From: a virus
Direction: 5' to 3' (one strand)
IMG/VR virus record: IMGVR_UViG_3300025087_000039
Coordinates: 61,598-125,597 of that record
DNA: 64,000 nucleotides
The position numbers were made by a program, and so were the translations under genes. Position 1 is the first letter of the stretch; each line of letters starts with the position of its first letter. The notes beneath the pieces were generated by a model. That model saw nothing but the letters and a program-made list of their open reading frames with translations. It made no database searches and was not told the origin of the DNA. Positions 13,601 to 40,166 of this stretch are shown in pieces.

Positions 13601-13603
13601 TAA

Positions 13604-20282: not shown

Positions 20283-21312
20283 AATTCAAATTGTAAATTG
20301 GCTTTTAACGAGGCGATGTAATTTAAATTGTTCATATTGTCGAATATCTGATCCAAAATATAAAAATAGAAATTATCCATCATTTAAATATTTTATAAAT
20401 TATGAAATGTCCACCCAATATGTTCTTGATTCATTAGATATTTTAAAAGAACATAATCCAAATTGTTTTCATATTTTTTATGGTGGAGAGCCTTTTTTAA
20501 GAAAAGACTTAATTGAGATTATTGATTTTTGCAATAAGAAAAATATTCATTATACAATTATCTCAAATAATAGTGATCAAGTTCAAGAACGAATAATTAA
20601 ATTGATTGATAATGTTGAAGTTAAAGGTTTTACTTCATCCGTTGATCCAGTTTTATTTTCTACAAACTATGATAAAGATCGATATGAAAAAAGTAAAAAA
20701 GGTCTTGAACGTTTAACAAAATTAACGGAGAAAATAAAAGACGTTGTAGCCGAGGTTACGATAGATAGAGAAACGATAAATTATTTAAAGCCTTTATTAA
20801 AAGATTTAACCAACAGAAAAATTTCTAGCAGCGTGACATCTATAGATATTGCAAAGAATGATTTTTATGATTTTTCAAATGTAACAGATAAAAATTTATT
20901 AGTATTGCCTGATGAAAACACAAAGAAAATTTTTGATGAAATAAAACAAGAAGACTTTAATATTCATATGGGAAAAGAATTTTTAGATAGATTATTTGAA
21001 ATATTACCCTCAAACTACGATTGTAAATTAGAAGAAGATCTTCATAATATTACAATTGATTCGGACGGTTCATTGAGATTGTGTTTAAGAATTATGGGAT
21101 ACGTTGGGTTACCTTTTAAAATTCAAAATATTTTTAATTCGGATTTAACCTTTAATAAAGGTTTTTTAGAATTATTAAAAGAGGATAAAAAGAGATTTTG
21201 TCAAGGTTGTAATTGGACATGCCCGATATTTAGCAAACTTTCTCAAAAAGATGAATATAGGGATTTAGTCATCCATACAAAAAATAGGGAGAATGAAAAT
21301 GGAAATCATTGA
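20275..21312 (+). CDS. Radical SAM protein with SPASM-like C-terminal cysteines
   Basis: A 345-residue radical SAM enzyme. The 4Fe-4S/SAM motif is CNLNCSYC (CxxxCxxC, about residues 16-23), followed by a 'YGGEPFLR' GGE motif. The C-terminal region carries more Cys (DCKLEED, RLCLRI, FCQGCNWTC) placed like an auxiliary iron-sulfur cluster domain. Such enzymes often modify peptides or proteins. It is coupled to the small protein at 19989. QueE-type activity for preQ0 synthesis is conceivable but the auxiliary Cys argue against it. The substrate is unknown. Confidence 0.85.
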   Translation: MDRIQIVNWLLTRRCNLNCSYCRISDPKYKNRNYPSFKYFINYEMSTQYVLDSLDILKEHNPNCFHIFYGGEPFLRKDLIEIIDFCNKKNIHYTIISNNSDQVQERIIKLIDNVEVKGFTSSVDPVLFSTNYDKDRYEKSKKGLERLTKLTEKIKDVVAEVTIDRETINYLKPLLKDLTNRKISSSVTSIDIAKNDFYDFSNVTDKNLLVLPDENTKKIFDEIKQEDFNIHMGKEFLDRLFEILPSNYDCKLEEDLHNITIDSDGSLRLCLRIMGYVGLPFKIQNIFNSDLTFNKGFLELLKEDKKRFCQGCNWTCPIFSKLSQKDEYRDLVIHTKNRENENGNH

Positions 21313-21612: not shown

Positions 21613-21975
21613 ATGATAATGAAGCCTTTAATCGGTCAAATAGTTTTAGATATATATGGAAAAAAAGTTTGGATCAATTCAATAGGTGGTTGTATTTTAC
21701 GAATTAATAATGTTAATTTTGTAAGAAATAATAATGAAGAACTGGATGAAAATATTATAGAAAAATTCAATATGATAGATATTAATTGTTCAGATAGTAA
21801 TAGCGCTGTTGTATTAAATAATAATATAGGAAGTGAAAAAAATATAAATAAATTTACGTTTTTAGAAAAGAGTTTATTTTGTTTATCTCAAATAGACAAT
21901 GAAGAACTTCAAAAAGAAATAATAGATTTTTTTGAAAAGGTTAGAACGAAAGGGCTAACAACGGATGGAAAATAA
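21613..21975 (+). CDS. Unknown protein upstream of the E2-like genes
   Basis: A 120-residue protein. Residues 1-40 look beta-rich (IGQIVLDIYGKKVWINSIGG), the middle is Asn-rich and probably flexible, and the C-terminal ~35 residues form a Glu/Lys helix. It overlaps the start of the first large E2-like gene by 11 bp, so it probably belongs to the ubiquitin-like cassette transcriptionally. No domain is recognised, and a role in that pathway is guesswork. Confidence 0.55.
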   Translation: MIMKPLIGQIVLDIYGKKVWINSIGGCILRINNVNFVRNNNEELDENIIEKFNMIDINCSDSNSAVVLNNNIGSEKNINKFTFLEKSLFCLSQIDNEELQKEIIDFFEKVRTKGLTTDGK

Positions 21976-24322
21976 TTGGATCTATAAGTTAGATTCAAGA
22001 ATAGTTATCGATAAAAATTTTGTGATAAAGGAATATGGTTATAAAAAAGATGATCTATTTTTAAAACTTGGAGATGTAAAATTTCCTGCTGCAAAATTTT
22101 CAAATCAATTTATTAATAAAGATTCAGAAGATTTATTGATGTTACCTGGGGTTAGGTTTTTGAAAAAAATTTCTGGAAATCAATGGAAATTTTTATTTGA
22201 GGAACCTCCTCAAATAAAAACAGTTTATGTTTCACCAGCATTGATTGATTATGAAAAAGGAATGATACAGAATCCAGAAATTGTTGAACTCTTTTTGAAA
22301 AATATTTATAAAATAAAGGGACGATATGCGGTTCGATTATCTTTTCCTTTTGTCATCTTTACTGGGGTAATTAGAAAAATAAAGGAAAATGTTTTTGACT
22401 CAATGTCATTATCAGCTTACATTGCTCCAAGACAATTAAATAGTTTTGATGATAAATTATATTTGCCACCTTTGTCAAATATTATGTTTACTGGATCGGT
22501 ATGTTGCCCGAGAACTTCTGGAGATACGATAGGGAGCACAATTTTAAATCAATTAAGAGTTTTTTGGGAATCTGAATTTAATACAGATTATTATAATGGA
22601 AGAAAATATACAAGTGAAAGTGGAAATGAGTTAGGAACAATTTTAGCTTGGAATTATAATACAAAGATTGATCCATTATTTATTTATGATAAAAAATTTG
22701 TCCAAGCGGATTCTTTGTTGAGTAATCTTTTTAATGGTGAAAATTTAATAACTGTTAAAACTCTTTTTGAAAGAATACAAAGTTCTTTTTCGAATATTGA
22801 ATCAGATAATTTTTCTAGGATAGAAAGAACATTGACATATTTAGAAATTCAGAAAGATAATAATATTATCAGGTTGGATATTGGTGATGAGATTGTAATA
22901 GGGGATAAAGTTTTATATATTTTAAATATATTTTTAGAAAACAATATATCTGTTATAGATTATGACACAAATGAAACGAAAGAAATTAAATTAACAAAGA
23001 AAATTTCTCATGATACTTATGATTATTATATTAAGAAAAAGTTTTTGATTAATAATTTAGAATTTTCTAGAGGAGATTTAATTCATATCACTTCTCCTAT
23101 GAATTATTTTGGATCGATTAATAGAATTGTCCAAAGGGCAGATGGAAGTCAATATTTAAAATTAGATAATAGTTATTTTAATTTTAATATCAAAAATTTA
23201 GTTTTTGAAAAATATCAAGATTCTAGTAAAGATTATTGTGGTGAGTCAATCAAATTAAATAAGAAATATTTTTATTTCAGGTCAGGTCATACTCCTTATG
23301 AAATTGAATTGTCAGATATTTTTATAAAAGATGGAAATATAATGTATAAAACTTTAAGAGATGGATATAATAATAATAATACCATTATCCCAGATACAAA
23401 AAATCTCGTTCCTATAGAAAAAGTTAAAACACACAAAGAAGAGTTTTTCTATAACGGAGCACAGATTTTTCATATAAGCGAATATTATAGTATCGATGAT
23501 TATAAGTTTGTAGATAACGGCTTCGACCTTTTTTTAGATTTTTCAAATGTTTTAAAAAATAATTCGATAAATATTTCTGGTAGAAAGAATTTTTCTTTTA
23601 AAGAGGGTGATCTTGTTATCGAAACAAGAAATACAAAATATAAAGTATATGAAATCAAAAAAATTACATCTTCAAGAAATAATAATTTAGAGGTCACTTA
23701 TCAAGATGGTAAAATATCTCCTCTACTTATTTATAATACAAATGTTAATCCATTTATAAATAAATTTTATATGAAATACAATGAGTTATATAGCGGTATA
23801 GAATTTAAAGCAATAAATAGTGATATTCCCGGTTTTGTAAAAAATAAAATATACAAATTAATAGGTTTTGTAGATGGATTTAAAAATATTCCACTGTGTT
23901 ACATGTCAAATGGAATGACTGTTTGGCCACACAATTTAATTCAATCTTTTAATGTCGTTTCAATAAATGAATTGAAAATTGAAGATTTAAATAGTCATGC
24001 AATAGGAGAGAAATTTCCTAAAGTTGAAGGCCCAAAAGCAAGAGTCCCTCATTTGGACGGAGAAGTGTCCTTCAAATATATAAACGGAAGATTTACAGAA
24101 AAAATTATAAATGGACAAATAAAATTGTACATGGGAGAAAAAAACTTTATTCCAAAAATAGATGAAGACGATTTAGATAATCAAATTTGTAGAGGAATAA
24201 TTTTTCCAAGGTTGACTGGTGAAAAAAATGTATTTTTAAATCAAAATTACATAGAACATAATTTATTAGGGCTGATTCCGAATTATTTTATTCCTGAAGA
24301 GGTTTTAAAAGGAGCAGCTTAA
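21965..24322 (+). CDS. Large E2-like protein A of the ubiquitin-like conjugation cassette
   Basis: A 785-residue protein. Residues ~90-230 resemble the prokaryotic E2-like family B (Prok-E2_B/PRTRC-B type): a 'LPPLSNIMFTGSVCCP' segment with candidate active-site Cys180/181, then 'FWESEFNTDYY', the pattern in which PRTRC-B-like proteins carry their conserved Cys. The long C-terminal region (about 260-785) is beta-rich and ends with a module ('KLIGFVDGFKN...YMSNGMTVWPHNLI') that is clearly repeated in the next protein. The two genes are therefore tandem paralogs. The giant C-terminal part is unusual for an E2 and could recognise targets. The E2 activity is inferred from motif and from the E1, Ubl and JAB neighbours. 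Confidence 0.65.
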   Translation: MENNWIYKLDSRIVIDKNFVIKEYGYKKDDLFLKLGDVKFPAAKFSNQFINKDSEDLLMLPGVRFLKKISGNQWKFLFEEPPQIKTVYVSPALIDYEKGMIQNPEIVELFLKNIYKIKGRYAVRLSFPFVIFTGVIRKIKENVFDSMSLSAYIAPRQLNSFDDKLYLPPLSNIMFTGSVCCPRTSGDTIGSTILNQLRVFWESEFNTDYYNGRKYTSESGNELGTILAWNYNTKIDPLFIYDKKFVQADSLLSNLFNGENLITVKTLFERIQSSFSNIESDNFSRIERTLTYLEIQKDNNIIRLDIGDEIVIGDKVLYILNIFLENNISVIDYDTNETKEIKLTKKISHDTYDYYIKKKFLINNLEFSRGDLIHITSPMNYFGSINRIVQRADGSQYLKLDNSYFNFNIKNLVFEKYQDSSKDYCGESIKLNKKYFYFRSGHTPYEIELSDIFIKDGNIMYKTLRDGYNNNNTIIPDTKNLVPIEKVKTHKEEFFYNGAQIFHISEYYSIDDYKFVDNGFDLFLDFSNVLKNNSINISGRKNFSFKEGDLVIETRNTKYKVYEIKKITSSRNNNLEVTYQDGKISPLLIYNTNVNPFINKFYMKYNELYSGIEFKAINSDIPGFVKNKIYKLIGFVDGFKNIPLCYMSNGMTVWPHNLIQSFNVVSINELKIEDLNSHAIGEKFPKVEGPKARVPHLDGEVSFKYINGRFTEKIINGQIKLYMGEKNFIPKIDEDDLDNQICRGIIFPRLTGEKNVFLNQNYIEHNLLGLIPNYFIPEEVLKGAA

Positions 24323-26766
24323 TGCTGAAAAAGCAGATTTTCATATGCGGAAATGAAGCTGGAATAAACTATTTAAACGGTACGACTATTTTTGCAAAAA
24401 AATCATGGTTCTATCAACCAATAGCAGAAAAACCTTTTCAATTAACAAAAGAAATGTCAGAATTGGATTTTTATATTTCTGATTCTAATAAAAATAAATA
24501 TATTGTTTTTCATGATGAACCACAAAAAAGAACAATACGCCTTCATAGCTATTTAGTTCAGAGACATTTAGAAGAATTAAATGAAATAAATCCTGAAGGG
24601 TTTAAAACATTACGTGAAATAAAAAAGAATGAATTGATTGAACCGATGAACTTTTTTCTTTCGTTTCCTTATATTTATTTTGGAGCAAAATTATTTGAAG
24701 ATGAAGGTGATATTCATGCTGAAAGGGTTTGTGCATTTGTCTCTAAAACTCCAATTAAATCTATGGAAGAAAAAGTATTTAGAGTTCCATTACCTAATAT
24801 AGAGCCTAGTGGAAAAATTTGTATGGGAACAGGAATTAGAAGCAAAAATATTTCTGGACTTATAAAAACAATACGAACGGTATTTTGGACATCGACATTT
24901 AATGATGATATTTTACAAAATGTTATTGCATATTCATCATATCCAACATTCAAAAACTTTTTTCAGTGGCAAATTCTAACAAAAAGCTCAGAAGAAAATA
25001 TAGCTTTGAAATCTAAATATGTCCAAATTGGATCATTATATGATGCTTTAGTTTTTGGAAGATCTCAGAATAATCGACCGTCTGAGGAACCTGTAAGACG
25101 TCAAAGTTCTGAAGATTATAATTATAATAATTTTGAAGATTTATATCACTCAATTTTAAAAAAAATGGAACCTAAAAAGATTTCTTTATATGGCAAGGAA
25201 TATTATGTATATTCTACAAATTTTTACTATGGGGAGCCATTTTATTTATCAAAAAAGAAAAAAACATTTTTCTTAGCTTGTGTTCATGATAATAGAAGAT
25301 TATATTTTATTTTAGAAAAAAATAAATATGGCAATACAGATCGTGAAAAATATTTTCTTATTAAACTTAGTGGTAAAAAGGATATGGATTTTTATATTAA
25401 AAAAAGAGGTATTCTTCATAAAAACACAGAAATTATAGTTGGGGGAATTCCATTTAAAAAAGATGATATGGTAAAAAATGAGAATCATATTAAAGATAAT
25501 TTTTCTTTAATTTCAATGGTTTATACAGATTCTGATGGAAATAATGTTTATATAAAAGATAATTCTAATTTAACTTTTTTCATTAATAATGATAATACAA
25601 TTAAAAAATTTATTCTAACAGATTGTTTTGATAAGCCAATAGATGGTAATAAAATATATTATAATCTTGATAATGTTCCTGGAACTAATTTATTAATTGG
25701 AGATATGAGATTTTATGGGAGAGATTTGAAAGTTCAAAGTAATGGAAGCAATACATATCTTTCTTATAATAAAAATTTAATAGCAATAAAAAATATTATT
25801 TTAGCAGAGGATGTCGAAAAATTTACATGTATTGATAAGAAATTAGGTTTCATAGATAATCGTTCTAGAATATCTATGGGCGTAAATGTCTGTACATATG
25901 AGGATGAAATATATTTAATAAAAAATACGTCAAGTTTTTGTCCCAATTTGAGAAAATTCTTTAAAGACGATAAAGTACAAATTGGTGGAATCACTGATTT
26001 TAATTTACCTCTTAACGAAATATTCTTCTTTGGGCATGAATTTTTATTTGGAATTGATAGATTTAAGGAATATAGTTCTGAGTATATAACTGGACTTAAA
26101 CAAAGACATGCCGTCATAGATTCAAATTGTAGTATTTTTAATCCTTTTATAAGGAAATTTTATACAAGTTATTTTAATTTACATACTGGAATGGTTATGA
26201 GATATATTTCAGGTTTGCCTAATTTTATAGAAAATGAAGAATATTGTATTTTAGGCTTTGTTGATGGTTTTATTGATATGGCCAAAAATATAAGAATTCC
26301 AGCCATTTTCATGTCAAATGGCGTTACGATATGGCCTCAAGATTTGATTAGATTTTTTCAATTTACAGAAAAGAAGAATGAAATTGATCTAGAGAAGTTT
26401 CAATTCACTAATCATGTTCATTCGACTTTTCAAAAAGGAGATTTATTGTTTAAAAGATCAGCTTTTTATTTACATGATGATCAACCAGATTCAAATGAAT
26501 TTGATTGGTATAATTTCAATACTATTTGTGAATCGGCAATAGATTCAAAGATTAAAAGTATAAATTTATTTTTAAGACCAATTGTGTATCCAAGAGTTCC
26601 CTTAAATGAAGAAGGAACAAAAGATAGAGTTTTTATTGGACAAAGATGTATTACAAACTGTCCTAAAACTTTTGATTTAGAAGAAAAATATTTATATCCT
26701 TATAAACCGGAATTTATAGATTCAAAAGTTCTTGATAAGTTTGTTTCGAAAAAGAAAGGAAAGTAA
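24322..26766 (+). CDS. Large E2-like protein B, paralog of the preceding gene
   Basis: An 814-residue paralog of protein A. The E2-like core shows 'PLPNIEPSGKICMGTG' with candidate catalytic Cys167 and 'FWTSTFNDD', aligning with the same elements of protein A. The shared C-terminal module is 'CILGFVDGFID...FMSNGVTIWPQDLI'. Overall similarity is low outside these islands, so the duplication is old. The start overlaps the previous stop (TAATG) with an aaaggagc ribosome site, and the stop overlaps the JAB gene in the same way. Having two large E2-like paralogs may mean two target classes or one inactive partner. Confidence 0.65.
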   Translation: MLKKQIFICGNEAGINYLNGTTIFAKKSWFYQPIAEKPFQLTKEMSELDFYISDSNKNKYIVFHDEPQKRTIRLHSYLVQRHLEELNEINPEGFKTLREIKKNELIEPMNFFLSFPYIYFGAKLFEDEGDIHAERVCAFVSKTPIKSMEEKVFRVPLPNIEPSGKICMGTGIRSKNISGLIKTIRTVFWTSTFNDDILQNVIAYSSYPTFKNFFQWQILTKSSEENIALKSKYVQIGSLYDALVFGRSQNNRPSEEPVRRQSSEDYNYNNFEDLYHSILKKMEPKKISLYGKEYYVYSTNFYYGEPFYLSKKKKTFFLACVHDNRRLYFILEKNKYGNTDREKYFLIKLSGKKDMDFYIKKRGILHKNTEIIVGGIPFKKDDMVKNENHIKDNFSLISMVYTDSDGNNVYIKDNSNLTFFINNDNTIKKFILTDCFDKPIDGNKIYYNLDNVPGTNLLIGDMRFYGRDLKVQSNGSNTYLSYNKNLIAIKNIILAEDVEKFTCIDKKLGFIDNRSRISMGVNVCTYEDEIYLIKNTSSFCPNLRKFFKDDKVQIGGITDFNLPLNEIFFFGHEFLFGIDRFKEYSSEYITGLKQRHAVIDSNCSIFNPFIRKFYTSYFNLHTGMVMRYISGLPNFIENEEYCILGFVDGFIDMAKNIRIPAIFMSNGVTIWPQDLIRFFQFTEKKNEIDLEKFQFTNHVHSTFQKGDLLFKRSAFYLHDDQPDSNEFDWYNFNTICESAIDSKIKSINLFLRPIVYPRVPLNEEGTKDRVFIGQRCITNCPKTFDLEEKYLYPYKPEFIDSKVLDKFVSKKKGK

Positions 26767-27881
26767 TGTTCCCAATATATTTATACGATGATAAAAAACT
26801 AATACCAAAAGAAGACATTGCATATCTTATCGGAAAAAATGGAATTTTTATTAAAAAACATTCTCCTATCGTTGATGCTTTGGTTCCGGTCGATAAAATT
26901 TCTTGTCTGGAAGAAATCAAAAGTTATGGGGTAATAAACGTTCCAAAATTACCTAAAGAAATAGGGGGATTAACTTATAAATTTATGAAAAAAATGTATG
27001 AAAAATATCATTCAGAAAGTATTGTAATGCTTTTTTATTCTCCGGAAAAAGGGTTTAGATTATATTGTCCCTTTCAAAATATTTCATCTGCTTCAATTAA
27101 ATATTTAAAGCCTAAAACTTTTAGGGGGTATACATTAATTGGAACTATTCATAGTCATGCTGGATTTTCAGCATTTCATTCCGGAGTCGATGATTCAGAT
27201 GAATTTGGTTTTGATGGGTTACATGTCACTTTTGGAAATTTTAGTGATGAAAAAACTTTTACAATTTCTTGTAGTTGTGTGGTAAATGGAAAAAGGTTTA
27301 TGTATGATCCCAAAGATTATTTTGAGGGCTTAACGGTTATAAAGGAGTTTACAAAAACATGGGATTATCGCATCCAAGGATATAATACAACTCCTTCAAA
27401 TAAATTTATGTTTAAAGAAAAAGATTTAAAGAAAATTAATATTCCCACCTGTTGGGATCGAAGAATAAATCAGCCGAAAATTTCTCAACTTAAAGAAAAT
27501 ATTGGAGAACTTAAAGTAAATGATTTTCAATACAGTGGACGTTTTAGTGGGGCTTATAGAGAATTTTATGAAGGTTATGGAGATTATTTATTTGGAGCTG
27601 GTGGCTCCAATTATTATAAAAATTATGGGTTAATTGATTGGGCTGGAAAAACGCCAACCACCGATCAAAAATTACGACATGAAAATCAAAAGAAAATAAA
27701 TGCACTAACTGAGTTTTATAAAACTGAAGATTTTGAACCAAGTATGTTGGTCGATGAATTGATAGATAGAGGTCTTTGTTTTGAAATTGATAGGGATCAA
27801 CTTGAAGCGGTTATCGATACATTTTTTAATGGAGAAATAGTTGAGGATGATGCTGAAGAAGGAGGTCTTGCTGTTTCATGA
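26766..27881 (+). CDS. JAB1/MPN (JAMM) metallo-isopeptidase
   Basis: A 371-residue protein with a textbook JAMM zinc motif: His129-x-His131, seven residues, Ser139, two residues, Asp142 ('TIHSHAGFSAFHSGVDD'). A candidate upstream Glu is at about residue 84. JAMM enzymes cut ubiquitin-like proteins from targets or trim their C-termini; in bacterial Ubl operons they sit beside E1 and E2 genes exactly as here. The C-terminal third contains a Gly/Tyr-rich stretch (about 265-285) and an acidic end. It overlaps the E2-like B gene by 1 bp and the E1 gene by 4 bp. Confidence 0.88.
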   Translation: MFPIYLYDDKKLIPKEDIAYLIGKNGIFIKKHSPIVDALVPVDKISCLEEIKSYGVINVPKLPKEIGGLTYKFMKKMYEKYHSESIVMLFYSPEKGFRLYCPFQNISSASIKYLKPKTFRGYTLIGTIHSHAGFSAFHSGVDDSDEFGFDGLHVTFGNFSDEKTFTISCSCVVNGKRFMYDPKDYFEGLTVIKEFTKTWDYRIQGYNTTPSNKFMFKEKDLKKINIPTCWDRRINQPKISQLKENIGELKVNDFQYSGRFSGAYREFYEGYGDYLFGAGGSNYYKNYGLIDWAGKTPTTDQKLRHENQKKINALTEFYKTEDFEPSMLVDELIDRGLCFEIDRDQLEAVIDTFFNGEIVEDDAEEGGLAVS

Positions 27882-28570
27882 ATATAAAAATTATAGGGTT
27901 GGGTGGAATAGGAACAGTTTTTTCTGAATTGGTAACGAGATATTTAACATATTCTGGAATTAATAATATTTCAATTTGTTTTATTGACGGTGATTCTTTT
28001 GAAAGAAAAAATTCTGAAAGACAAATTTTTCAAAATCTTGGGAATAAAGCAGAGATAAAATTTAGAGAAATTAATAATCCGATGGGAAGTATTAATTATA
28101 CATATATTCCGGAATATATTAATGAAAATAATATCAACAGAATTATTTTTGAGGATGACATTGTATTTTTGTGTGTTGATAATCACGCAACAAGAAAATT
28201 AGTCTCAGATCATTGTGTATTGTTAAGGAACATAATATTAATATCTGGTGGCAATGAACTTTTGGATGGCAATGTTCAAATTTTTATTAGGAAAGATAAC
28301 AAAAATATTACCCCAACCATAACTGATTATCATCCAGAGATCAATGAGCCATTGGATAAAAACCCCAATGATATGAGTTGCGAAGAATTATCAAGATTAT
28401 CAGAACCCCAAATTTTCTTTACAAACGCTGGAGTCGCAATTTTTATGTGTTTTTCATTTTATAATATTTTAAATCAAAAAGATTTTAATGTTTCTGAAGT
28501 TTATTTTGATATTCCGAAACTTGTGTCTGATTCAAAAATTAGGTCTCCATATGTCAGAAAGCATGCTTAA
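27878..28570 (+). CDS. ThiF/E1-like ubiquitin-like protein activating enzyme
   Basis: A 230-residue E1/ThiF-superfamily adenylyltransferase. The nucleotide-binding loop GLGGIG lies at residues 7-12. It is followed by acidic residues D37/D39, the NSERQ motif (N45, R48, Q49) that contacts ATP in E1 enzymes, and Asp101 in 'CVDNHATR'. A candidate catalytic Cys168 in MSCEE sits where bacterial ThiF-like E1s place theirs, just before 'FTNAGVA'. It should adenylate the C-terminus of the ubiquitin-like protein encoded 85 bp downstream. It overlaps the JAB gene by ATGA. Confidence 0.88.
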   Translation: MNIKIIGLGGIGTVFSELVTRYLTYSGINNISICFIDGDSFERKNSERQIFQNLGNKAEIKFREINNPMGSINYTYIPEYINENNINRIIFEDDIVFLCVDNHATRKLVSDHCVLLRNIILISGGNELLDGNVQIFIRKDNKNITPTITDYHPEINEPLDKNPNDMSCEELSRLSEPQIFFTNAGVAIFMCFSFYNILNQKDFNVSEVYFDIPKLVSDSKIRSPYVRKHA

Positions 28571-28655: not shown

Positions 28656-29093
28656 ATGTATACCGCCGAACAGCTGTCCGCCATGACCGTTCGTGAACTC
28701 CGTGACATCTGCGTCAGCCGTGGGATCACCGGGATGTCCAAGCGCCGGAAGGATGAGATCATCAGCGCCATCCTGGCCAACACCCGGAACGACGAAGCGG
28801 GTCAGCCTGGCCCCACCGCAATCCGTGGGCTCCAGTATGACGCGACCAGCACCCGGGTGTCCGGTGGGAACCAGATCACAACGACCATCCGGGTCACCTC
28901 CGGTGCAAGCTCGGGGAACTACCCCGTCGTCGGGAAGACCGTGGGCGAGGTTTCTCGCTTCCTGGCGGAAGCCCTCAACATCGACCGGATGGCCCAGGGT
29001 ATCGTGAACGGTGACGTGAAGGACGACAACTACGTTCTCCAGGCCAACGACTCCCTCGAGTTCCTGAAGCCTGCCGGACGGAAGGGTTTCTAA
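28656..29093 (+). CDS. Ubiquitin-like (beta-grasp) protein with N-terminal Rho-N/SAP-like domain; GC-rich gene
   Basis: A 145-residue protein. Residues 5-42 resemble the Rho N-terminal/SAP-type helical domain (MTVRELRDICVSRGI...SKRRKDEII), a nucleic-acid-binding fold. After a flexible linker, residues 72-145 read like a prokaryotic ubiquitin-like domain of the PRTRC-C/multi-ubiquitin sort: 'TTTIRV', 'GKTVGEVSRFLAEAL', 'GIVNGDVKDDNYVL', 'NDSLEFLKPAGRKGF'. The protein ends Gly144-Phe145, so removal of one residue would expose a C-terminal Gly for E1 activation. The gene is about 62% GC with GC-ending codons, in complete contrast to both neighbours (near 25%), and a UUCG hairpin follows. This implies strong expression, host-like codon tuning or recent transfer. 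Confidence 0.75.
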   Translation: MYTAEQLSAMTVRELRDICVSRGITGMSKRRKDEIISAILANTRNDEAGQPGPTAIRGLQYDATSTRVSGGNQITTTIRVTSGASSGNYPVVGKTVGEVSRFLAEALNIDRMAQGIVNGDVKDDNYVLQANDSLEFLKPAGRKGF

Positions 29094-29149: not shown

Positions 29150-29788
29150 ATGACATTTTTTATTTTTTCTATTGTGGTGTTGTTTATGGCAGCGTTTTTA
29201 CTTAAAATCCTAAAATTGAAGAAAAATAATAATATTATAGAAGCTGATTATATTGTAGAAGATTCATTAAATTTATGGGAAAAGTATTTTAGTAAAAGAA
29301 TTGTATATGTTTTTAGGAAAAATTTTTTAGGTAAATTTATGACAATATGTCTTTTTCTTGATAGCGAAGGTAATGTTTTGTCCAGGGGTATTTCAATTTG
29401 TTCCTTAGATGATAATATGACAAATTATGGAGGAATTTCATTATCTGCGTCTAGAGCGTATAATGCGTTTATCACCACAAAAAATTCAGAAAGAATAATT
29501 CCAAGAAAAATGAAAAATTATACAAGAAGATATAATTTTAAAACAATTGAAGAAAGAGATATTTTTATAAAAGATATTGAACTAGAATTGGAAAGACTTT
29601 TATTACCTCATGAATATTCTTTAAAAATAAGAAACTTAACTTTACATCTGACGATTCCTAAAAGTTATTTACTATTTTTTGCTAAACAATATTATGAATA
29701 TAAATCTGAATATCAACCTTTATTTTTAACGGAAGAAGAAAAACAAGAAATCAACAAAAGGATTGAAAAAGAAAGATTGAAAAAATGA
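29150..29788 (+). CDS. Membrane-anchored protein within the ubiquitin-like cassette
   Basis: A 212-residue protein. Residues 2-21 form a strongly hydrophobic N-terminal helix (signal anchor), followed by Lys-rich residues, giving an N-out/C-in anchored topology. The soluble part contains 'RGISICSLDDNMTN' followed by 'SLSASRAYNAF', which recalls a short motif found in small phage and plasmid proteins, and ends with a Glu/Lys-rich helix. The ribosome site aaaaggga lies just after the terminator, and the stop overlaps the second E1-like gene. No enzymatic role is seen; it could bring conjugation to the membrane. Confidence 0.6.
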   Translation: MTFFIFSIVVLFMAAFLLKILKLKKNNNIIEADYIVEDSLNLWEKYFSKRIVYVFRKNFLGKFMTICLFLDSEGNVLSRGISICSLDDNMTNYGGISLSASRAYNAFITTKNSERIIPRKMKNYTRRYNFKTIEERDIFIKDIELELERLLLPHEYSLKIRNLTLHLTIPKSYLLFFAKQYYEYKSEYQPLFLTEEEKQEINKRIEKERLKK

Positions 29789-30672
29789 TTATTCGTGAAA
29801 TATGTATAATTGGAACCGGAACGTTCGGGAGTCATTTATCAATCAAATTTTCAGAGGCTAAAGAAATAAAAAAATTAATACTTATTGATTATGATTTAGT
29901 AAATGAAAATGATATTTTAAAGGGTGATTTTACCACGTTAGGAAAAAGAAAAGTTTTTGATTTATCTGAAAGAATAGAAAAAACAAGGGGCTATGAATTT
30001 ATAAAGCCCATTGATTCGAAGAACGGATTTGATTTTTCAAAAATACTTAGATATAGTTATGAAAATTTATTAATTATTGATTGTACTGATGTATTAAATA
30101 ATAAAAATCAATCAGATATAAAAAGTTATATTTCTGGAAGAAAAGTTATTTTAGATTGCAGAAAAAATTTGAATTATAGCAATGGATTTGAAGGAAGATA
30201 TTTTGAAGATTTATCAAAATATGAATTAGAACAAGCGGCAATTTTAGCAAGAAATACAATTCTTAATAAATCTTTTGAAAATATTTTGACTAAGGAATTA
30301 GTTCAAATTTTAGATATTCCTAGAATAGATAATTATCTTCAAAAGACTTTAAAAAATGAATCTGAAAAAGATGATTTAATAGTTCAAAACGATGGAAATT
30401 TAGAAAGATTTTATAATTTTTCAAGTTCAGTAAAACCGATCATAGAAAAGAATAAGAGGCAAGATATAGATTTTTATCTAGATTCTAAGTTTTCTACCTT
30501 CCCAATTAAAACTACATGTTTAAAAGAAAGACTACAAACTCCTTTAGATCTTTGTGAATTATTAAAAACCTTTTCTAGTTTTCCAACTGTTAAATATAAT
30601 TATATTATTAACATCGTAGATGAAGGGAATGATTTTTATGTGGAATTAATAAGAGAATCGGGAGCAGCATGA
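29785..30672 (+). CDS. Second, divergent E1/ThiF-like protein
   Basis: A 295-residue Rossmann-fold protein related to ThiF/E1: GTGTFG at residues 10-15, acidic LIDYD at 33-37, 'NENDILKGDFTTLGKRKV' where E1s have NxxRQ...GxxK, and 'IIDCTD' near residue 98. The conserved Arg of the E1 NxxRQ motif is not present, and no clear catalytic Cys motif follows (Cys125 in LDCRKN is a weak candidate). It may therefore be a non-catalytic partner of the first E1 or an enzyme with altered chemistry. The C-terminal ~150 residues are unique. Its stop overlaps the small E2 gene (ATGA). Confidence 0.65.
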   Translation: MIIREICIIGTGTFGSHLSIKFSEAKEIKKLILIDYDLVNENDILKGDFTTLGKRKVFDLSERIEKTRGYEFIKPIDSKNGFDFSKILRYSYENLLIIDCTDVLNNKNQSDIKSYISGRKVILDCRKNLNYSNGFEGRYFEDLSKYELEQAAILARNTILNKSFENILTKELVQILDIPRIDNYLQKTLKNESEKDDLIVQNDGNLERFYNFSSSVKPIIEKNKRQDIDFYLDSKFSTFPIKTTCLKERLQTPLDLCELLKTFSSFPTVKYNYIINIVDEGNDFYVELIRESGAA

Positions 30673-31103
30673 ATGATATCATCCTTCAAAATGGAGCGAT
30701 AGTTATAAACAAAGATTCTAAAATAAAAATTGAGAAGATAAATAAAAAAATTATTCCTTCTTATTTTATTTTGAATAATGAATATTTTAAAATATTAGAA
30801 ATAGATTTGCCATATATTATTAATGGTTATTATGTTAGGGTGATAGATCAAAGAATTCTATCAATTATTTTATGTGGTGTTCATCCGAACGCTGATTTAT
30901 ATTCTGGTTTATTATGTTTACCTAAGCCTTTTATTGGAAAACATTTTAACGAAAAATTTTTAAACATAATAGAGAATCGGTTTATTTCAATACATAATTT
31001 GGATAATAGTTATTTTATAGATAAAGCTATTTATCTTAAATATGAAAAGGTAACACACAAACCAAAAATATATATTGTGGAGGATCAATGCCCAAACTCT
31101 TAG
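30669..31103 (+). CDS. Small canonical-looking E2 (UBC-fold) conjugating enzyme
   Basis: A 144-residue protein with the strongest E2 signature in the window: HPN at residues 72-74, then Cys83 in 'GVHPNADLYSGLLCLP', closely echoing the HPN-x7-C-L-P active-site region of eukaryotic ubiquitin-conjugating enzymes. The length also fits a minimal UBC fold. It starts in the stop of the second E1-like gene with a gggagc ribosome site. Its last 16 bp overlap the start of the second RNA polymerase beta' gene, so the conjugation cassette and polymerase set 2 are translationally linked. The target and Ubl partner are inferred only from context. Confidence 0.75.
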   Translation: MNDIILQNGAIVINKDSKIKIEKINKKIIPSYFILNNEYFKILEIDLPYIINGYYVRVIDQRILSIILCGVHPNADLYSGLLCLPKPFIGKHFNEKFLNIIENRFISIHNLDNSYFIDKAIYLKYEKVTHKPKIYIVEDQCPNS

Positions 31104-33814
31104 ATATTTCTAAGTTTTGTGAAAATCTTCCAGAGGTAACTACATTTGAGATTATTGATAAGAAAAAATTTCATCCAAATGGCCTTTTTTCAGAACAACT
31201 TTTTGGACCAATAAGAAATTATACATGTCAATGTAAAATTTATAGGGGCGTTTCAAAATCCGGAGGAAAATGTAATATTTGTAATGTTGACATAGTTAAT
31301 AGTAATGTAAGAAGAAGAAGATTTGGAAAAATTGTTTTGCCTTTTCCAATTGTAAATCCAATGTTTTTTGAACTATTAAGTTTTGTTGGCGGAAAGAAAG
31401 TTAAAGAAATGATTTCTATGTTAATGAAAAATGATAAAAGTATTTTATATAAAGATGATAATGGAGAATTTGTTATAACCACAGATATTGAAAGCATCCC
31501 TAAAGAAAAAATATTTTTTGAAAAAACTGAGGCAATAAAAGAATTTATTACACAAATTACAAAAGAGATTTTAAAGGATGAAGAAAATCCAGAATTAAGT
31601 TATTGGAATATAATAAAAGAAAATTTAAATAATATTTTAATAAACGAAGTAATTGTTTTACCTCCAGATTTAAGACCCCCATCAAAAACTACGGTAAAAA
31701 ATGTTCCTGTCGCAGATCCAATAAATAGATTTTATGTTCAACTTTTAACAAATAAAAAGATCATTGAAAACACTTTGGTCGAAGTTCAAAAAAATAAAAA
31801 GATATATTATATGTATTTTAAAGAAATTCAAAAAACTGTAAATCAACTTTATGTTTTTATATTGGAAAAACTTTCTAAAAAAGAAGGATTGATAAGAGGA
31901 AATATTTTAGGAAAAAGAATTGATTTTTCAGGGAGAGCCGTAATAGTCCCATCTCCAACTATTAATATTGACGAATGTGTTTTACCCTATGTTATGATTT
32001 TAGAATTATTTAAAATTCAAATTGCACAAAAATTAGTGAATAATGAAAGTTTTAAAATTCTCAACGAGGCAATAGATTTTGTTGATAGATGCATTGATCT
32101 TAAAAGTTTGGATTTATATAAAGAAGCTGAAGAAATTGTAAAGGGTGAAGTTTGTATTTTAAATAGGCAACCCACGCTTCATAGATTAGGAATGCTTGGT
32201 TTCAAAATTAAAATATCCTCAGATAATGTTATAAAAATTCACCCTTTAGCATGTGAGCCATTTAATGCTGATTTTGATGGGGATCAGATGGCGGTATATT
32301 TACCAATATCTCAAGAGGCAAAAGATGAAGTTCTTGATAAGTTATTGATAACAAATAATTTAAACAGTCCATCAAATGGACAATTAGCGACTATGCCAAA
32401 TCAAGATATAATTTTGGGAATTTATATGTTAACAAATGATAAATTTCCTGATTTAACAAAAGAAACTATTTTTAAAAATATTAAAATCACAGAAGGAAGA
32501 AAATTATTCAATGAGTGTTTTCCAGAAGACTATCCTATAATAAATTACTCTGTAGGCAAAAATGAATTATTAAAAATCTTAAGTGATATTTCACAAAATT
32601 ATTCTAAAGAAATATTAGCCATAGTTTTAGATAAGATCAAATTATTGGGATTTAAATATTCAACAATTTTCGGAACCACTATGTCTTTAATTGATTGTAC
32701 ATCAAAAGATTCTAAGGAATATGTAGATAAAATATTTTCAGGAGAAAATATAAGAAAACAAATCGAAGATATATCTTCAAATGAAACTATAGAAACTTTA
32801 AAGAAAATATTTAAATATTCTTATATGGTTGAATCTGGAGCCAGAGGAACTTGGGACCAAGTTAGACAAATTGTTTTATCAAGAGGGTTTATCTCAAATT
32901 TTGAAGGACAAATTTTACCTGAACCAATTAAAAATAGTTTAATGAATGGGTTAACCAAAAGAGAATTTTTTATATCCACATATGGATGTCGAAAAGGTTT
33001 ATTAGACGTTGCATTAAATACTGGAATCTCAGGCTATCTTTCAAGAAAGTTGATTTTTACCTGTTGTAATCTTCAACTTGATTTAAATTTAGAAGATTGT
33101 GGAACTAAAGATTGTATAGAACTTTTTATTGAAAATGCAGATAAAAGTAAATCTTTAATAGGCAGAAATTATATAGAGAATAATGAATTGAAAAAAATTA
33201 CAATGTTAAATTTTAAAAGTTTAGTTGGAAAAACTTTAAAACTACGAAGTCCTATTTATTGTGAATCTGAAAATATTTGTAAAACTTGTTATGGAGATTT
33301 ATACAAAATTATCAATAGTAAATTTATTGGCGTAGTTGCGGCTCAGTGTCTTGGTGAAAGAGGAACTCAATTAGTTTTAAGAACTTTCCATACTTCTGGG
33401 TCTGCTATAATTAATGAAAAATCTGAAGAAAAAATTGATGAGATGAAACAGATGGATATTATTGGGGATTTAGAAACCGCTTCTGATTTATTACATAGAT
33501 TTAAAGATAATAATTTTATGAATTCTTTAAATAATTTATTTAAAGTATATTCCTCTTCTGGAAAAATACATCATGTTCATTTTGAATGTGTGATTTCTCA
33601 GTTAATGTGGCATGGAATGAAAAAATGGAGATTAACCAAAGATCGTGATAAAAAATCTTTAGAAATGAAAAGTGTCCAATCGGTTCCCAGTTATGAAAGT
33701 TGGCTTTTAGCTTTAGCTTTTTCTAATCCAAAAAAGAGCATATTAAATGGAATGGTATATAAAGGTTTATATACTGGAATTATGGACCGAATATTAAAAG
33801 GGGAAAAAGTTTAA
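31088..33814 (+). CDS. RNA polymerase beta' subunit (set 2, intact)
   Basis: A 908-residue beta' subunit in one chain. The N-terminal zinc-binding domain has Cys47, 49, 62 and 65, the same spacing as bacterial beta'. The switch/rudder region includes 'GLIRGNILGKRIDFSGRAV', and the catalytic NADFDGD is at about residues 393-399. The second zinc site has Cys in EDCGT and YC-x5-IC-x2-C. 'LRTFHTSG' and the C-terminal helix 'VHFECVISQLM' follow. It is much shorter than the E. coli protein, as in other phages. It starts within the E2 gene with a gtggagg site and precedes the beta gene by 19 bp. Confidence 0.96.
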   Translation: MPKLLDISKFCENLPEVTTFEIIDKKKFHPNGLFSEQLFGPIRNYTCQCKIYRGVSKSGGKCNICNVDIVNSNVRRRRFGKIVLPFPIVNPMFFELLSFVGGKKVKEMISMLMKNDKSILYKDDNGEFVITTDIESIPKEKIFFEKTEAIKEFITQITKEILKDEENPELSYWNIIKENLNNILINEVIVLPPDLRPPSKTTVKNVPVADPINRFYVQLLTNKKIIENTLVEVQKNKKIYYMYFKEIQKTVNQLYVFILEKLSKKEGLIRGNILGKRIDFSGRAVIVPSPTINIDECVLPYVMILELFKIQIAQKLVNNESFKILNEAIDFVDRCIDLKSLDLYKEAEEIVKGEVCILNRQPTLHRLGMLGFKIKISSDNVIKIHPLACEPFNADFDGDQMAVYLPISQEAKDEVLDKLLITNNLNSPSNGQLATMPNQDIILGIYMLTNDKFPDLTKETIFKNIKITEGRKLFNECFPEDYPIINYSVGKNELLKILSDISQNYSKEILAIVLDKIKLLGFKYSTIFGTTMSLIDCTSKDSKEYVDKIFSGENIRKQIEDISSNETIETLKKIFKYSYMVESGARGTWDQVRQIVLSRGFISNFEGQILPEPIKNSLMNGLTKREFFISTYGCRKGLLDVALNTGISGYLSRKLIFTCCNLQLDLNLEDCGTKDCIELFIENADKSKSLIGRNYIENNELKKITMLNFKSLVGKTLKLRSPIYCESENICKTCYGDLYKIINSKFIGVVAAQCLGERGTQLVLRTFHTSGSAIINEKSEEKIDEMKQMDIIGDLETASDLLHRFKDNNFMNSLNNLFKVYSSSGKIHHVHFECVISQLMWHGMKKWRLTKDRDKKSLEMKSVQSVPSYESWLLALAFSNPKKSILNGMVYKGLYTGIMDRILKGEKV

Positions 33815-33833
33815 TTTTTTCATGGAGGATTCA

Positions 33834-36830
33834 ATGATTCGAAATCCTTTTTATGAGATTGACGATCCTGTAAATAATATGTTTTCAATCAGAAAAAATG
33901 AATATGATGAAATACTTAGCAAGGTTAATATAATTTTACAACCTGCTAGAGATCTTGATTTTATTGTCGAAGAATTGGATTTTTATGATCATAAATTTAC
34001 TTCTGGTGAACTTCATAGAACATTGAGACGAAATTTGATTATCAAATTGAAGAAAAGAAATTCAACGATTGATTTAAGTATGTCTGTTCCAAAATTAATT
34101 GATAATAATTATTTTTATATTAACGGTCGAAAGAAAATGCCTTTATTTCAAATGTTCGATTTACCTGTTGTGACAAGAGGAAAAATTATTAAATTAAGAA
34201 CTTGTGTTTCTACATTAATGTTAATAAATGAAAAAACAGAGCCTTTTATAAAAGCATCTTTTTTGGGTAAAAAAGTCCCTTTAGTTTTATTGATGGCATG
34301 CTATTTTTCTGAAAAAGAGTTGGAAGAAAGAAAACAAAAACTTTTAGGTATGAAAGAGCATAATGTTTTTTCAGAAAATTTATTAAAAGATATTGAGGAA
34401 TTTCAGGTTGAAAATGAAGGAATTGAAGAAGAATTTTTGATGGAAATGTTAGGGCGGCATTACACAAAATATAATATTAAATCAAAAGGTTATGATGTTA
34501 TATATGCTCTTGATATAATTCCAAAAGTTGATATTATGTCTTCCCAATTCTTCAGAACTGAAAATGTTTTAGATGAAATTCTTTATCCTTTAATTAATGG
34601 ATTTTATAATGATTTAGATTTAAGAAATAAAAGAATAAGATGTTTTGAATATGTTGTTTTAGAAAAGGTTGCTAAAGCCGTTTTTGATTTATGCGTTACA
34701 AATAGAACAACACGAAATCCAAATTTCAATATTAATACTAGCCATATAATTTCTGAATGTAATGTTTCAGATATTGTTCAATTTGATTTTGCGATAAATC
34801 CAATTGAAGAATTAACCAGTTTATCAAGAACCAGTTTAGTTGGGCCTGGTGGTTTTAAGAGAGAAAATGTTCCAAGGGGGTTGAGAGATATAAATGACTC
34901 TATGTATAATCGAATCTGTCCTGTTGATACCCCAGATAGAGAAAATTGTGGAGTTTTACAAAATCTTCTAATAAATACAAAATTAGATAATAATTTAAGA
35001 TTTTCAGAAGAGAGAAGCAATCAACCAATTTCTATCCCAGTATCATTTGTCCCATTTCTTGAAAGAGATGACCAGACGAGATTGCAAATGGCATCATCAC
35101 AAATGAGACAAACAATTCTTTTAAAAAATAATGATTCACAATTAATCAAAACAGGTTGTGAAGGATTATATACCGATAAAACTCAATTTGTAAAAACTGC
35201 AAAAAATAAAGGAACTGTAATTTATTTGGATCAAAAGATTTTAATTGTAAAATATGAGGATGAAACGCCTGACTTTTTTGAGGTTGGCCATAGAGAAATA
35301 TATGTAAAAAATTTAGACATTTATAAAGTTTATGTGAAAGTTGGAGATACATTTAATAAAGGAGATATTTTAGCGGAGAGTTTATTTTGTAGAAATGGTG
35401 AAATAAATTTTGGAAAAAATCTTCTGACCGGAGTTATGGTTTATTATGGATATAATTATGAAGACGGCATTGTAATTTCAGATCGATTGATAAAAGATGA
35501 TTCATTTACCTCAGTTCATTTTAAAGATTTATCTTTTAATATTCCATCAAATAAAGTTCTTTTATCTTTAGAAAAAAATTCATATAAACCTCTTCCAGAA
35601 AAATTTGAAAGAATTTATAAAGGGCAAGCATATGCCAAAACTAAAAGTATTTTATCTGGAACTGAATTTACTAGTGTTTTTGAAGAAGTGGAAGAACAAA
35701 CTACAGATAAAAATGTTATAATCACAGACCTCAATTTATATATAAATGATTGGAACAAAGAAATTCCAGAATATTCAAGATGGGTTGAAACCGTTAAAAA
35801 TGAACAGATACGAAATGAAGATATTTTTAGAGAATCTCTAAAAGATCATTTTGAAAAAAGAGATATTGAAGATATTATTAGAGATAATTTTCTAAATAAA
35901 TTTTCTCAGGCTGGAAGATATAAAATTAAGGGAGAAAGAATAAGCGGTATACTTGTTGAAATGTCAGGAATATTTTTTAGAAAAATCCAGGTTGGAGATA
36001 AGATAGCTAACAGACATGGAAATAAAGGGGTTATCTCAGCAATAATTCCTGAAGAAAAAATGCCTGTTTTGGAAGATGGAAGACATTTAGATATCTGTAT
36101 AAATCCTCTTGGAATAATTTCCAGAATGAATATTGGACAATTATTTGAACTTCATTTGGGGATGGCAGTTAATACCCTTAAAATGAAATCTTTAGAGATG
36201 TTAAAAAATTCAGAACCTCAGGAAAAAATAAAGGAATTTTTAATTGAGTTTATTAAAATAATTGATAGAACAGAAGGCAATTGGTATACAAAACAATTTA
36301 TTGAAAATTTTCCAGAAAATATTGAAAAAGAATTTTTAGAGAATTTTTCAGTTCATCAGCCACCTTTTGAGTCAACAGATATGAAGGGAATTGAAGACGC
36401 TTTAAAATATACAAATGAGAATTTTAAGTATAAGGTTTTTGATCCAATTTCTAAGATGGATATTTTAAATGAGGTTGCAGTAGGGTTTTTAACTTTTTTT
36501 AGAATTGCACATATTGCTGAAGATAAGCTCGCCGCCAGAGGAATCGGCTCATATACAAAGAAAACTCTTCAACCGTTAGGTGGAAGAAAGAATAAAGGCG
36601 GACAAAGATGTGGTGAAATGGAGTCCGCTAGTTTGATTGGGTACGAAGCGAGCACAAATCTTTTTGAGATGTTTACCACAAAATCTGATTGTATAGATTT
36701 AAAAAATCAACATATTAAAAATAGTATTAGAAATACTGGAATGACGATGTTTGATGAAGAAATAAATATTTCCCCTGAATCTGTAAATCTCTTATATTCA
36801 TATTTAAAGGCAATCGGAATAGAGCCGTGA
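33834..36830 (+). CDS. RNA polymerase beta subunit (set 2)
   Basis: A 998-residue beta subunit, far shorter than the 1366-residue beta of set 1. Motifs include 'SRTSLVGPGGF' and 'RICPVDTPDRENCGV' (about residues 340-380), GYNYEDG (about 540), 'GDKIANRHGNKGVIS' (about 720) and 'GGRKNKGGQRCGEME' (about 917). An ATG 12 bp upstream is in frame, but ATG 33834 has ggagg at 4-5 nt and is preferred. It forms an operon with the beta' just upstream and ends at a strong hairpin. Together with set 1 it shows that the phage encodes two polymerases, a hallmark of phiKZ/PBS1-type jumbo phages. Confidence 0.95.
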   Translation: MIRNPFYEIDDPVNNMFSIRKNEYDEILSKVNIILQPARDLDFIVEELDFYDHKFTSGELHRTLRRNLIIKLKKRNSTIDLSMSVPKLIDNNYFYINGRKKMPLFQMFDLPVVTRGKIIKLRTCVSTLMLINEKTEPFIKASFLGKKVPLVLLMACYFSEKELEERKQKLLGMKEHNVFSENLLKDIEEFQVENEGIEEEFLMEMLGRHYTKYNIKSKGYDVIYALDIIPKVDIMSSQFFRTENVLDEILYPLINGFYNDLDLRNKRIRCFEYVVLEKVAKAVFDLCVTNRTTRNPNFNINTSHIISECNVSDIVQFDFAINPIEELTSLSRTSLVGPGGFKRENVPRGLRDINDSMYNRICPVDTPDRENCGVLQNLLINTKLDNNLRFSEERSNQPISIPVSFVPFLERDDQTRLQMASSQMRQTILLKNNDSQLIKTGCEGLYTDKTQFVKTAKNKGTVIYLDQKILIVKYEDETPDFFEVGHREIYVKNLDIYKVYVKVGDTFNKGDILAESLFCRNGEINFGKNLLTGVMVYYGYNYEDGIVISDRLIKDDSFTSVHFKDLSFNIPSNKVLLSLEKNSYKPLPEKFERIYKGQAYAKTKSILSGTEFTSVFEEVEEQTTDKNVIITDLNLYINDWNKEIPEYSRWVETVKNEQIRNEDIFRESLKDHFEKRDIEDIIRDNFLNKFSQAGRYKIKGERISGILVEMSGIFFRKIQVGDKIANRHGNKGVISAIIPEEKMPVLEDGRHLDICINPLGIISRMNIGQLFELHLGMAVNTLKMKSLEMLKNSEPQEKIKEFLIEFIKIIDRTEGNWYTKQFIENFPENIEKEFLENFSVHQPPFESTDMKGIEDALKYTNENFKYKVFDPISKMDILNEVAVGFLTFFRIAHIAEDKLAARGIGSYTKKTLQPLGGRKNKGGQRCGEMESASLIGYEASTNLFEMFTTKSDCIDLKNQHIKNSIRNTGMTMFDEEINISPESVNLLYSYLKAIGIEP

Positions 36831-36976: not shown

Positions 36977-37822
36977 ATGACACTGCCGGACATTCAAAAA
37001 ACAGAGCCAGAGATTAAAAGATATATTAATCAGGTTGGGGTTGAAAATATTGAGCTTCCGTTTATTCTTCAATTAAAATCAGGTGGTTATACGGATGTCT
37101 TAGCTTCAGTTTCTTTAAAAACAAATTTAAAAGAAGATATTAAAGGCATTTCCATGTCAAGACTTTTATTAACCCTAAAACCATTTTTAGGAAAACCGTT
37201 AAAACATTTTTTAATTCTTGAAATTTTAAAAGATATTGCAAAAAATCTTGAAACAAAAAATAGTATGTTAACATTTAAGTTTAAACTTCCTATTATTAAA
37301 AAATCTCCAATTTCAAACAATGAATTTCCTTTATATTATAAAAGTATGTTTGAAGGGCATCTATTAGATGATAAATTTTCATTTTATCAGGGCGTAACAG
37401 TTCAATATTCTTCATATTGTCCATGTTCTGCTGAATTATGTAAAGATTTAAAAAATAATGGCTTAGAAGGTTTTCCTCATGCACAGAGATCTTTCTCATC
37501 AATCATAGCAAAAATAAAAGAGAATAATTATATATGGTTAGAGGATCTAATATTTACTGTCGAAAACTCGATACGAACTCAGCCATACCCTATAATCAAA
37601 AGAATAGATGAGCAAGAGATCGCTAGAATCGCAGCAGAAAATCCCATTTTTGTTGAAGATGCAATTCGAGTTATTTCTCAAAAAATCGATTCGATAGATG
37701 GGATAGAGGATTGGATCATAAAATGTTCTCATGAGGAATCAATCCATACATCAGAGGCAGTTGCAAGTTCTTGGAAAGGAATTCAAGGAGGATTTGATGA
37801 AAAATATTTTCTTCAGGTTTGA
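36977..37822 (+). CDS. folE2: GTP cyclohydrolase IB (FolE2)
   Basis: A 281-residue FolE2 (GTP cyclohydrolase IB), which makes 7,8-dihydroneopterin triphosphate from GTP. Recognisable elements are 'DIQKTEPEIKRYINQVGVE', 'GISMSRL', the metal-binding 'SSYCPCSAE' (about residue 146), 'HAQRSFSS', 'IKRIDEQEIARIAAENP' and the C-terminal 'SHEESIHTSEAVA'. Its product feeds QueD (14934) and hence preQ0-type 7-deazaguanine synthesis, or folate. The ribosome site is caggagc. A phage FolE2 rather than the commoner FolE is noteworthy because FolE2 does not need zinc. Confidence 0.9.
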   Translation: MTLPDIQKTEPEIKRYINQVGVENIELPFILQLKSGGYTDVLASVSLKTNLKEDIKGISMSRLLLTLKPFLGKPLKHFLILEILKDIAKNLETKNSMLTFKFKLPIIKKSPISNNEFPLYYKSMFEGHLLDDKFSFYQGVTVQYSSYCPCSAELCKDLKNNGLEGFPHAQRSFSSIIAKIKENNYIWLEDLIFTVENSIRTQPYPIIKRIDEQEIARIAAENPIFVEDAIRVISQKIDSIDGIEDWIIKCSHEESIHTSEAVASSWKGIQGGFDEKYFLQV

Positions 37823-39838: not shown

Positions 39839-40166
39839 AAATAAATGTTCTTCAGAAAAAGAAGTTGTCACCTTAGTTGTAGATTTAGATCAAGATGATT
39901 TTATTGGACATACATTAAAAGAAAATATCATAAAAATAAATGAATTAATTAAAAACTTTGGAGAAAATGCGAGAACAGAGTTGGATTATAGTAGACTTAT
40001 CTTGAGATATCAACGGTTGGAAACTGATGATGAATTTAAAGAGAGAATGAGGAAAGAAGAGATAATTAAAATGAGATGTAAAAGGGAAAAAGAATTAAAG
40101 GAAGAATACGAACGTAAAGAATATATAAGATTAAGGAAAAAGTTTGAAAAGGATTCGAAAATTTGA
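39825..40166 (+). CDS. Small radical-SAM-associated protein, LETDEEF family (copy 3)
   Basis: A 113-residue paralog of the preceding gene: 'TLKENIIKINELIKNFGE', then YQRLETDDEFKERM, then a Lys/Glu helix ending 'YIRLRKKFE'. It has an aaggaga ribosome site. Its stop overlaps the TTG start of the radical SAM gene at 40163, implying translational coupling. The tandem pair upstream of one enzyme and a third copy downstream suggests the small proteins have diverged to serve one shared enzyme. Confidence 0.75.
   Translation: MGKNKNKCSSEKEVVTLVVDLDQDDFIGHTLKENIIKINELIKNFGENARTELDYSRLILRYQRLETDDEFKERMRKEEIIKMRCKREKELKEEYERKEYIRLRKKFEKDSKI

Follow-up and report, generated by a model that had tools for sequence, protein, structure and literature searches.

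We identify, in the DNA of a large phage, an open reading frame (ORF) that is predicted to encode a functional E2 within a ubiquitin-like conjugation pathway of the phage; we put the probability of this reading at about 0.6. The ORF lies at 30669-31103 of the window, by which we mean the whole stretch of 64,000 nucleotides that was analysed, positions 61598-125597 of a virus contig of 125,597 bp. Its product has the HPN motif and a candidate thioester cysteine, and its tightest partner is the adjacent E1b, an E1-like adenylation protein with a Ubl-like tail. At somewhat less than even odds, one can go further and envision an uncultivated large phage lineage that combines an E1 bearing its own tag with a minimal HPN-type E2 and has an independent PRTRC-like pathway as well. 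Both would sit in an RNA polymerase block, and the E1-Ubl fusion, or a tail freed from it, would modify phage or host proteins in infection. The features on which the argument draws are as follows.

21965-24322, + strand: Prok-E2_D-like protein, copy a (weak match)
24322-26766, + strand: Prok-E2_D/PRTRC_B-like protein, a second kind of E2, copy b
26766-27881, + strand: JAB/JAMM protease, PRTRC_A-like, with HxH-x7-S-x2-D intact
27878-28570, + strand: E1, ThiF/PRTRC_ThiF-like, with a conserved SCEEL cysteine motif
28656-29093, + strand: PRTRC_C-like ubiquitin-like protein (Ubl), with a Rho_N/SAP-like N-terminal domain and a presumed beta-grasp domain, ending in KGF
29785-30672, + strand: E1b, E1-like adenylation protein of 295 aa, directly upstream of the E2 gene and its near-obligate neighbour
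30466-30669, + strand: putative Ubl-like C-terminal domain of E1b, residues 228-295, ending in Gly-Ala-Ala (fold by predicted topology only)
30661-30669, + strand: codons of the conserved tail, Gly293-Ala294-Ala295
30669-31103, + strand: E2-like protein of 144 aa with an ATG start, a predicted minimal UBC-like core with an HPN-8-C active site
30882-30890, + strand: HPN codons (cat ccg aac), residues 72-74, from translation and homologue conservation
30915-30917, + strand: Cys83 codon (tgt), predicted thioester residue
31077-31083, + strand: Shine-Dalgarno-like sequence of beta' (gtggagg), inside the E2 gene
31088-33814, + strand: RNA polymerase beta', the second such gene of the contig, sharing 16 bp with the E2 gene
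33822-36830, + strand: RNA polymerase beta subunit

The E2-like protein and its active site

A first-pass annotation of this DNA had placed HPN at residues 72-74 and Cys83-Leu-Pro after it, and translation of the ORF bears this out, with Leu84-Pro85 directly following Cys83. It had also described the spacing as one residue longer than the canonical one. Eight residues indeed separate Asn74 from Cys83, against the seven that lie between the HPN Asn and Cys in UbcH5-type E2s. Of the homologous loci with a match to the motif, 50 of 55 have the longer spacing, and Pex4 E2s in the PDB likewise have eight residues at this place.

Relatives were collected by retrieving 80 viral contigs via the neighbouring beta' protein and examining the region upstream of beta', where about 70 of the 80 have an ORF of the E2 family. 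Across an alignment of 56 family members, the window protein included, Pro30, His72 and Cys83 are invariant (56/56), Pro73 is kept in 54 and Asn74 in 52. The homologues share only about 17-41% identity with the window protein, and motif conservation at this distance means that HPN and Cys83 are not there by chance. Conservation of these residues among homologues was one check that the annotation had put forward, and both are kept across the family.

Direct sequence comparison gives little. The window E2 alone as query has no significant match in direct sequence searches and none in Pfam, PHROGs or NCBIfam. UQ_con (PF00179) is not matched by the window protein and is matched weakly by 2 of the 56 family members (best E 0.0059). 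A profile of the E2 family searched against the whole PDB returned only two matches, both Pex4 E2s and both weak (E 0.24 and 1.3), and these (5nkz/6xod) align with the profile exactly on HPN-8-C. Comparison by hhalign with five classical E2s, the sequences of which are approximate, gave P = 0.00067 over 43 columns at a probability of 27%, the aligned part being HPN...C and the helix that follows; with the E1b tail domain as a control, P was 0.19.

Searches for relatives beyond the retrieved contigs were also negative. A search of 50,697 phage records turned up no homologue for any of the E2, E1b and the Ubl at 28656. Pattern scans needed a closer subset of sequences (A3), as A1, the wider alignment, proved too heterogeneous; scans of GTDB for the E2 and E1b, with one or two short patterns per scan, found no relatives. 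Absence of the two proteins from cells is only indicated by these patterns. In PADLOC, the Bil models were not matched by the phage E2, and there is a weak match to PDC-M30A (E 6e-4).

An AlphaFold model of the E2 built from the 56-row alignment (pLDDT 88.5, pTM 0.79) has a five-strand meander, a loop carrying HPN and the cysteine, and one helix. It lacks helix 1, the N-terminal helix that binds E1 in classical E2s, as well as their C-terminal helices. The annotation had called for comparison with UBC folds, and here the predicted fold appears UBC-like: after re-ranking with VIA-align, all of the best 50 rows shown are UBC E2s, though with Z of at most 4.5. Foldseek ranks non-E2s first; against the PDB and BFVD it gave no significant E2 match for the model (E-values above 1), and no E2 and no viral E2-like model stands among the best 50 listed. 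We read the protein as having a divergent, minimal UBC fold, a predicted match that rests on consistency and not on the strength of any score.

The more distant loci L071 and L081 each encode two E2-like proteins of the HPN/HP type. One of them lies upstream of beta', and the other is an internal HPN...C E2-like domain of a protein of 583-591 aa (L071:47-1822 and L081:8-1759) that adjoins another ThiF-type E1.

E1b and its conserved tail

The association between E1b and the E2 is close. In a scan anchored on E1b, the E2 gene was adjacent in 56 of 56 loci, at distances of -64 to +25 nt. When loci were instead anchored on beta' and had at least 3 kb upstream (n=70), E1b and E2 were found together in 66 loci and were jointly missing from 3; L078, the one locus left, has a single E1-like match and no E2.

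E1b retains the GxGxxG and DxD motifs together with N43, K56 and D99, and G10, G12, G15, D35, K56 and D99 are invariant in its family. Its profile matches MoeB, MccB, ThiF, Cap2 and eukaryotic E1s in the PDB, with MoeB best (E 5.7e-14). In a structure search that covered the E1 part of the E1b model (pLDDT 89.1), the E1 domain of Cap2 was the top match (Z 17.4, rmsd 2.6, 167 residues). E1b lacks the Arg of NxxRQ, a motif of MoeB and E1s, and has no separate cysteine domain, its only conserved cysteines being those of the DCRD and DCRK motifs.

Residues 228-295 of E1b are predicted to form beta-beta-alpha-beta-beta, the order of a ubiquitin-like domain. Sequence searches returned no Ubl match for this region. 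We propose from the predicted topology that the domain is Ubl-like, which would make E1b an E1-Ubl fusion. The protein ends in a near-invariant Gly-(Ala/Gly/Ser)-Ala, in which the last Ala is kept in 67 of 69 sequences and the third-last Gly in 63 of 69; the C-termini of the neighbouring E1, JAB and E2 proteins, taken as controls, vary freely. That the tail is kept only as a ribosome-binding site for the E2 gene was considered and rejected. Its synonymous codons vary and GGAG is missing in half of the genes, and the tail is thus kept for its amino acids. In CBASS, the residue by which Cap2 attaches cGAS is a Gly or Ala at the end of cGAS, and conservation of this residue is confined to systems with an E2 (PMC10097602). 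On this analogy, the conjugated end would most likely be the tail of E1b.

In L071, L079 and L081, a separate ORF of 92-95 aa stands between E1b and E2 and also ends in Ala; it has no sequence link to the E1b domain.

A PRTRC-like module upstream

Upstream of E1b lie the genes for the Ubl, E1, JAB and Prok-E2_D-like proteins. The RQ motif and the SCEEL cysteine, both missing from E1b, are retained in the E1 at 27878. The PRTRC_A, PRTRC_B and PRTRC_ThiF models score 37, 14.8 and 45.6 bits, against curated cut-offs of 101.8, 131.45 and 144.75, and judged by these scores the genes are related to PRTRC and not members of it. We liken the Ubl to PRTRC_C by the tail of that family and not by any profile match; G-(R/K)-K-G is conserved at the end of its homologues. 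Among the 60 loci with 8 kb or more upstream, 52 have both modules. The modules are nonetheless separable, because L055 has the E1b-E2 pair without PRTRC-like genes nearby and L062 has those genes without the pair. The pair is also without PRTRC-like genes nearby in L071, L079 and L081.

Several features of these genes may be of interest in their own right. The Ubl gene has 62% G+C, and 81% at third codon positions, in a window of 28% G+C; it is richer in G+C than its surroundings in 65 of 65 related loci checked, by a median of 11 points. Codon adaptation to high expression, or import of the gene, could account for this. Of the homologues, 39 end the Ubl in KG-stop and about 20 in KGC, and the Ubl of the window ends in KGF; the tail may be processed, or the terminal cysteine may have its own function. 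A Rho_N/SAP-like domain at the Ubl N-terminus (28656-28790, Pfam E 1.8e-9) suggests that the modifier binds nucleic acid. The Prok-E2_D-like proteins at 21965-26766 are large (785 and 814 aa) and in tandem; relatives, where examined, usually have one gene matching the Prok-E2_D family. A cultured Bacillus phage, vB_BauM_KLEB27-3 (OM634661.1, our locus L082), has a PRTRC_A-annotated gene followed by a ThiF gene. The sole match to the phage E2 family in KLEB27-3 has an E of 0.027 and runs across a stop codon, and we count no E2 of this family there. This phage could serve as a laboratory model of the PRTRC-like genes.

Proposed mechanism and alternatives

We envision that E1b binds ATP and adenylates a C-terminal tail ending in Gly-Ala-Ala, as its conserved E1 motifs and Cap2-like model suggest. 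The tail would be that of E1b's own Ubl-like domain, to which the tail residues and predicted topology point, and the fusion could act in cis or in trans. Cys83 of the E2 would then take the tail as a thioester, consistent with the invariance of this residue and with the HPN loop. Asn74 would support transfer to a target amine, a role of the HPN Asn that is established E2 chemistry. Since the module is fixed upstream of the beta' and beta genes, we would guess, with low confidence, that the targets are phage or host transcription proteins. The PRTRC-like Ubl, E1, JAB and Prok-E2_D would form a second, separable module.

Alternatively, the two sets of genes could form one shared cascade, in which the E1 at 27878-28570 activates the Ubl at 28656-29093 and the Ubl in turn charges the E2. 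E1b would then be a scaffold or one half of an AOS1-like heterodimer, with its C-terminal domain a ubiquitin-fold domain that recruits the E2. This would place the RQ motif and SCEEL cysteine, which E1b lacks, in the activating enzyme; the near-universal KG tail of the Ubl and the frequent co-occurrence of the modules fit as well. We still consider it unlikely. The PRTRC-like module already owns an E2 (Prok-E2_D), the E1b-E2 pair stands without PRTRC-like genes nearby in four loci, with the reverse in L062, and a recruiting domain leaves the near-invariant last residues of E1b unexplained.

Two further readings would take the E2 out of protein conjugation altogether. In a sulfur-carrier pathway, the E1-like protein and a Ubl-like thiocarboxylate would deliver sulfur that the E2-like cysteine relays to nucleotide, tRNA or cofactor modification. 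The E1s do also match ThiF and MoeB, and the neighbourhood has conserved radical SAM and FolE2 genes, but FolE2 fits 7-deazaguanine synthesis without sulfur, and the genes checked around the cassette included no recognisable rhodanese, cysteine desulfurase or sulfurtransferase. Moreover, the E2 retains the HPN Asn that is used for amine transfer, and sulfur-carrier systems are not known to use a UBC-fold partner; this is the least probable of the readings considered. Hardly more probable is a catalytically dead UBC-like domain of the UEV or RWD kind, with no role beyond binding a Ubl or RNA polymerase. The shortness of the protein, its missing flanking helices and the weak fold scores would be in keeping with such a domain. 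Dead E2 folds lose the cysteine (PMC1779556), however, and here Cys83 and His72 are invariant, and Asn74 is kept in more than 90%, at about 17-41% identity.

Relation to known systems

A conjugating E2 of the kind we favor is most readily compared with eukaryotic UBC-fold E2s (PF00179), which, like the phage protein, have an HPN loop, a later catalytic Cys and, as in our model, a strand meander followed by a helix. Pex4 (5nkz/6xod) is nearest at the active site, with the eight-residue spacing in both. Unlike these enzymes, the phage E2 has no significant Pfam match and no predicted helix 1 or C-terminal helices, it is viral, and no E3 was seen with it. The E1-E2 protein Cap2 of type II CBASS contains the closest structural match of E1b. 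CBASS would also be alike in a conjugated Gly or Ala end with a conserved terminal residue, in a non-classical protein as modifier and in a JAB-type partner (Cap3 in CBASS). Unlike Cap2, the phage E1 and E2 are separate genes, and the E1 carries the tail in its own chain. No nucleotidyltransferase was seen in the cassette, which is phage-encoded and not a defence operon.

The neighbouring genes resemble PRTRC and operon type 6d in their PRTRC_A, PRTRC_ThiF and PRTRC_B/Prok-E2_D matches and in a Ubl with a conserved Gly tail. Unlike in those systems, the matches fall far below the curated cut-offs, and the HPN-type E2 and the proposed E1-Ubl fusion are extra to the operon type. Type 6d consists of Ubl, JAB, E1 and Prok-E2_D, with an E2 that lacks the His (Iyer et al., 2006; PMC1779556). 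BilABCD and Bub operons are like the phage cassette in having separate genes for Ubl, E1, E2 and a JAB-type protease, and the motif of the BilB E2 is CEHH, not HPN (PMC11354881). The first-pass annotation had remarked that most bacterial E2-like proteins lack HPN, which agrees with both the type 6d and the BilB enzymes. E1-E2-RING operons of archaea (Caldiarchaeum, Asgard) are likewise prokaryotic, and in them the gene of an HPN-type E2 accompanies those of an E1 and a Ubl (PMC5654768). Unlike these operons, which we liken by description, the phage cassette has no recognised RING gene, and its tail is GAA, not GG.

No report of a phage system of this kind was found in the open-access literature searched. 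The proposed chemistry is known from other ubiquitin-like pathways; novel, as far as tested, are an HPN-type E2, its occurrence in phages and the joining of E1 and tail. The ubiquitin-like systems reported from bacteria until now serve mostly in host defence against phages, and their E2s are mostly without HPN. Here it is phages that carry the system, with a classical HPN...C site kept across deeply diverged relatives; phages may thus label proteins much as eukaryotic cells do. An E1 fused to its own tag would be an apparently new architecture. If our reading is true, the pair is a minimal and directly testable E1-E2 system, it raises the question of what the phage tags during infection, and it brings viruses into the debate on the origin of eukaryotic E2s.

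The RNA polymerase block

Both modules form part of an operon-like block that also contains RNA polymerase genes and for which the order radical SAM - WYL_2 - Prok-E2_D - JAB - E1 - Ubl - E1b - E2 - beta' - beta - FolE2 is widely common. The annotation was right to speak of a second RNA polymerase beta' gene, as the other starts before the window and ends at 1282, and right about the 16-bp overlap, given an E2 end at 31103 and a beta' ATG at 31088. From this overlap it had suggested co-regulation of E2 and beta'. Co-regulation is plausible: the block stands upstream of beta' in about 70 contigs, and in the window the Shine-Dalgarno-like sequence of beta' is inside the E2 gene. Direct overlap is not the rule, however, and in most relatives E2 and beta' are separated by one or two genes for small helical proteins (60-100 aa). 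These small ORFs were considered as a missing Ubl and rejected; they resemble short helical proteins.

The window has two multisubunit RNA polymerase gene sets (5-1282, 2280-6380 and 31088-36830) and gyrase-like subunits at 11795-14932. A FolE2-type GTP cyclohydrolase is encoded at 36977-37822, and two radical SAM proteins at 20275-21312 and 40163-40975. The FolE2 and radical SAM proteins near the cassette perhaps serve deazaguanine or peptide modification.
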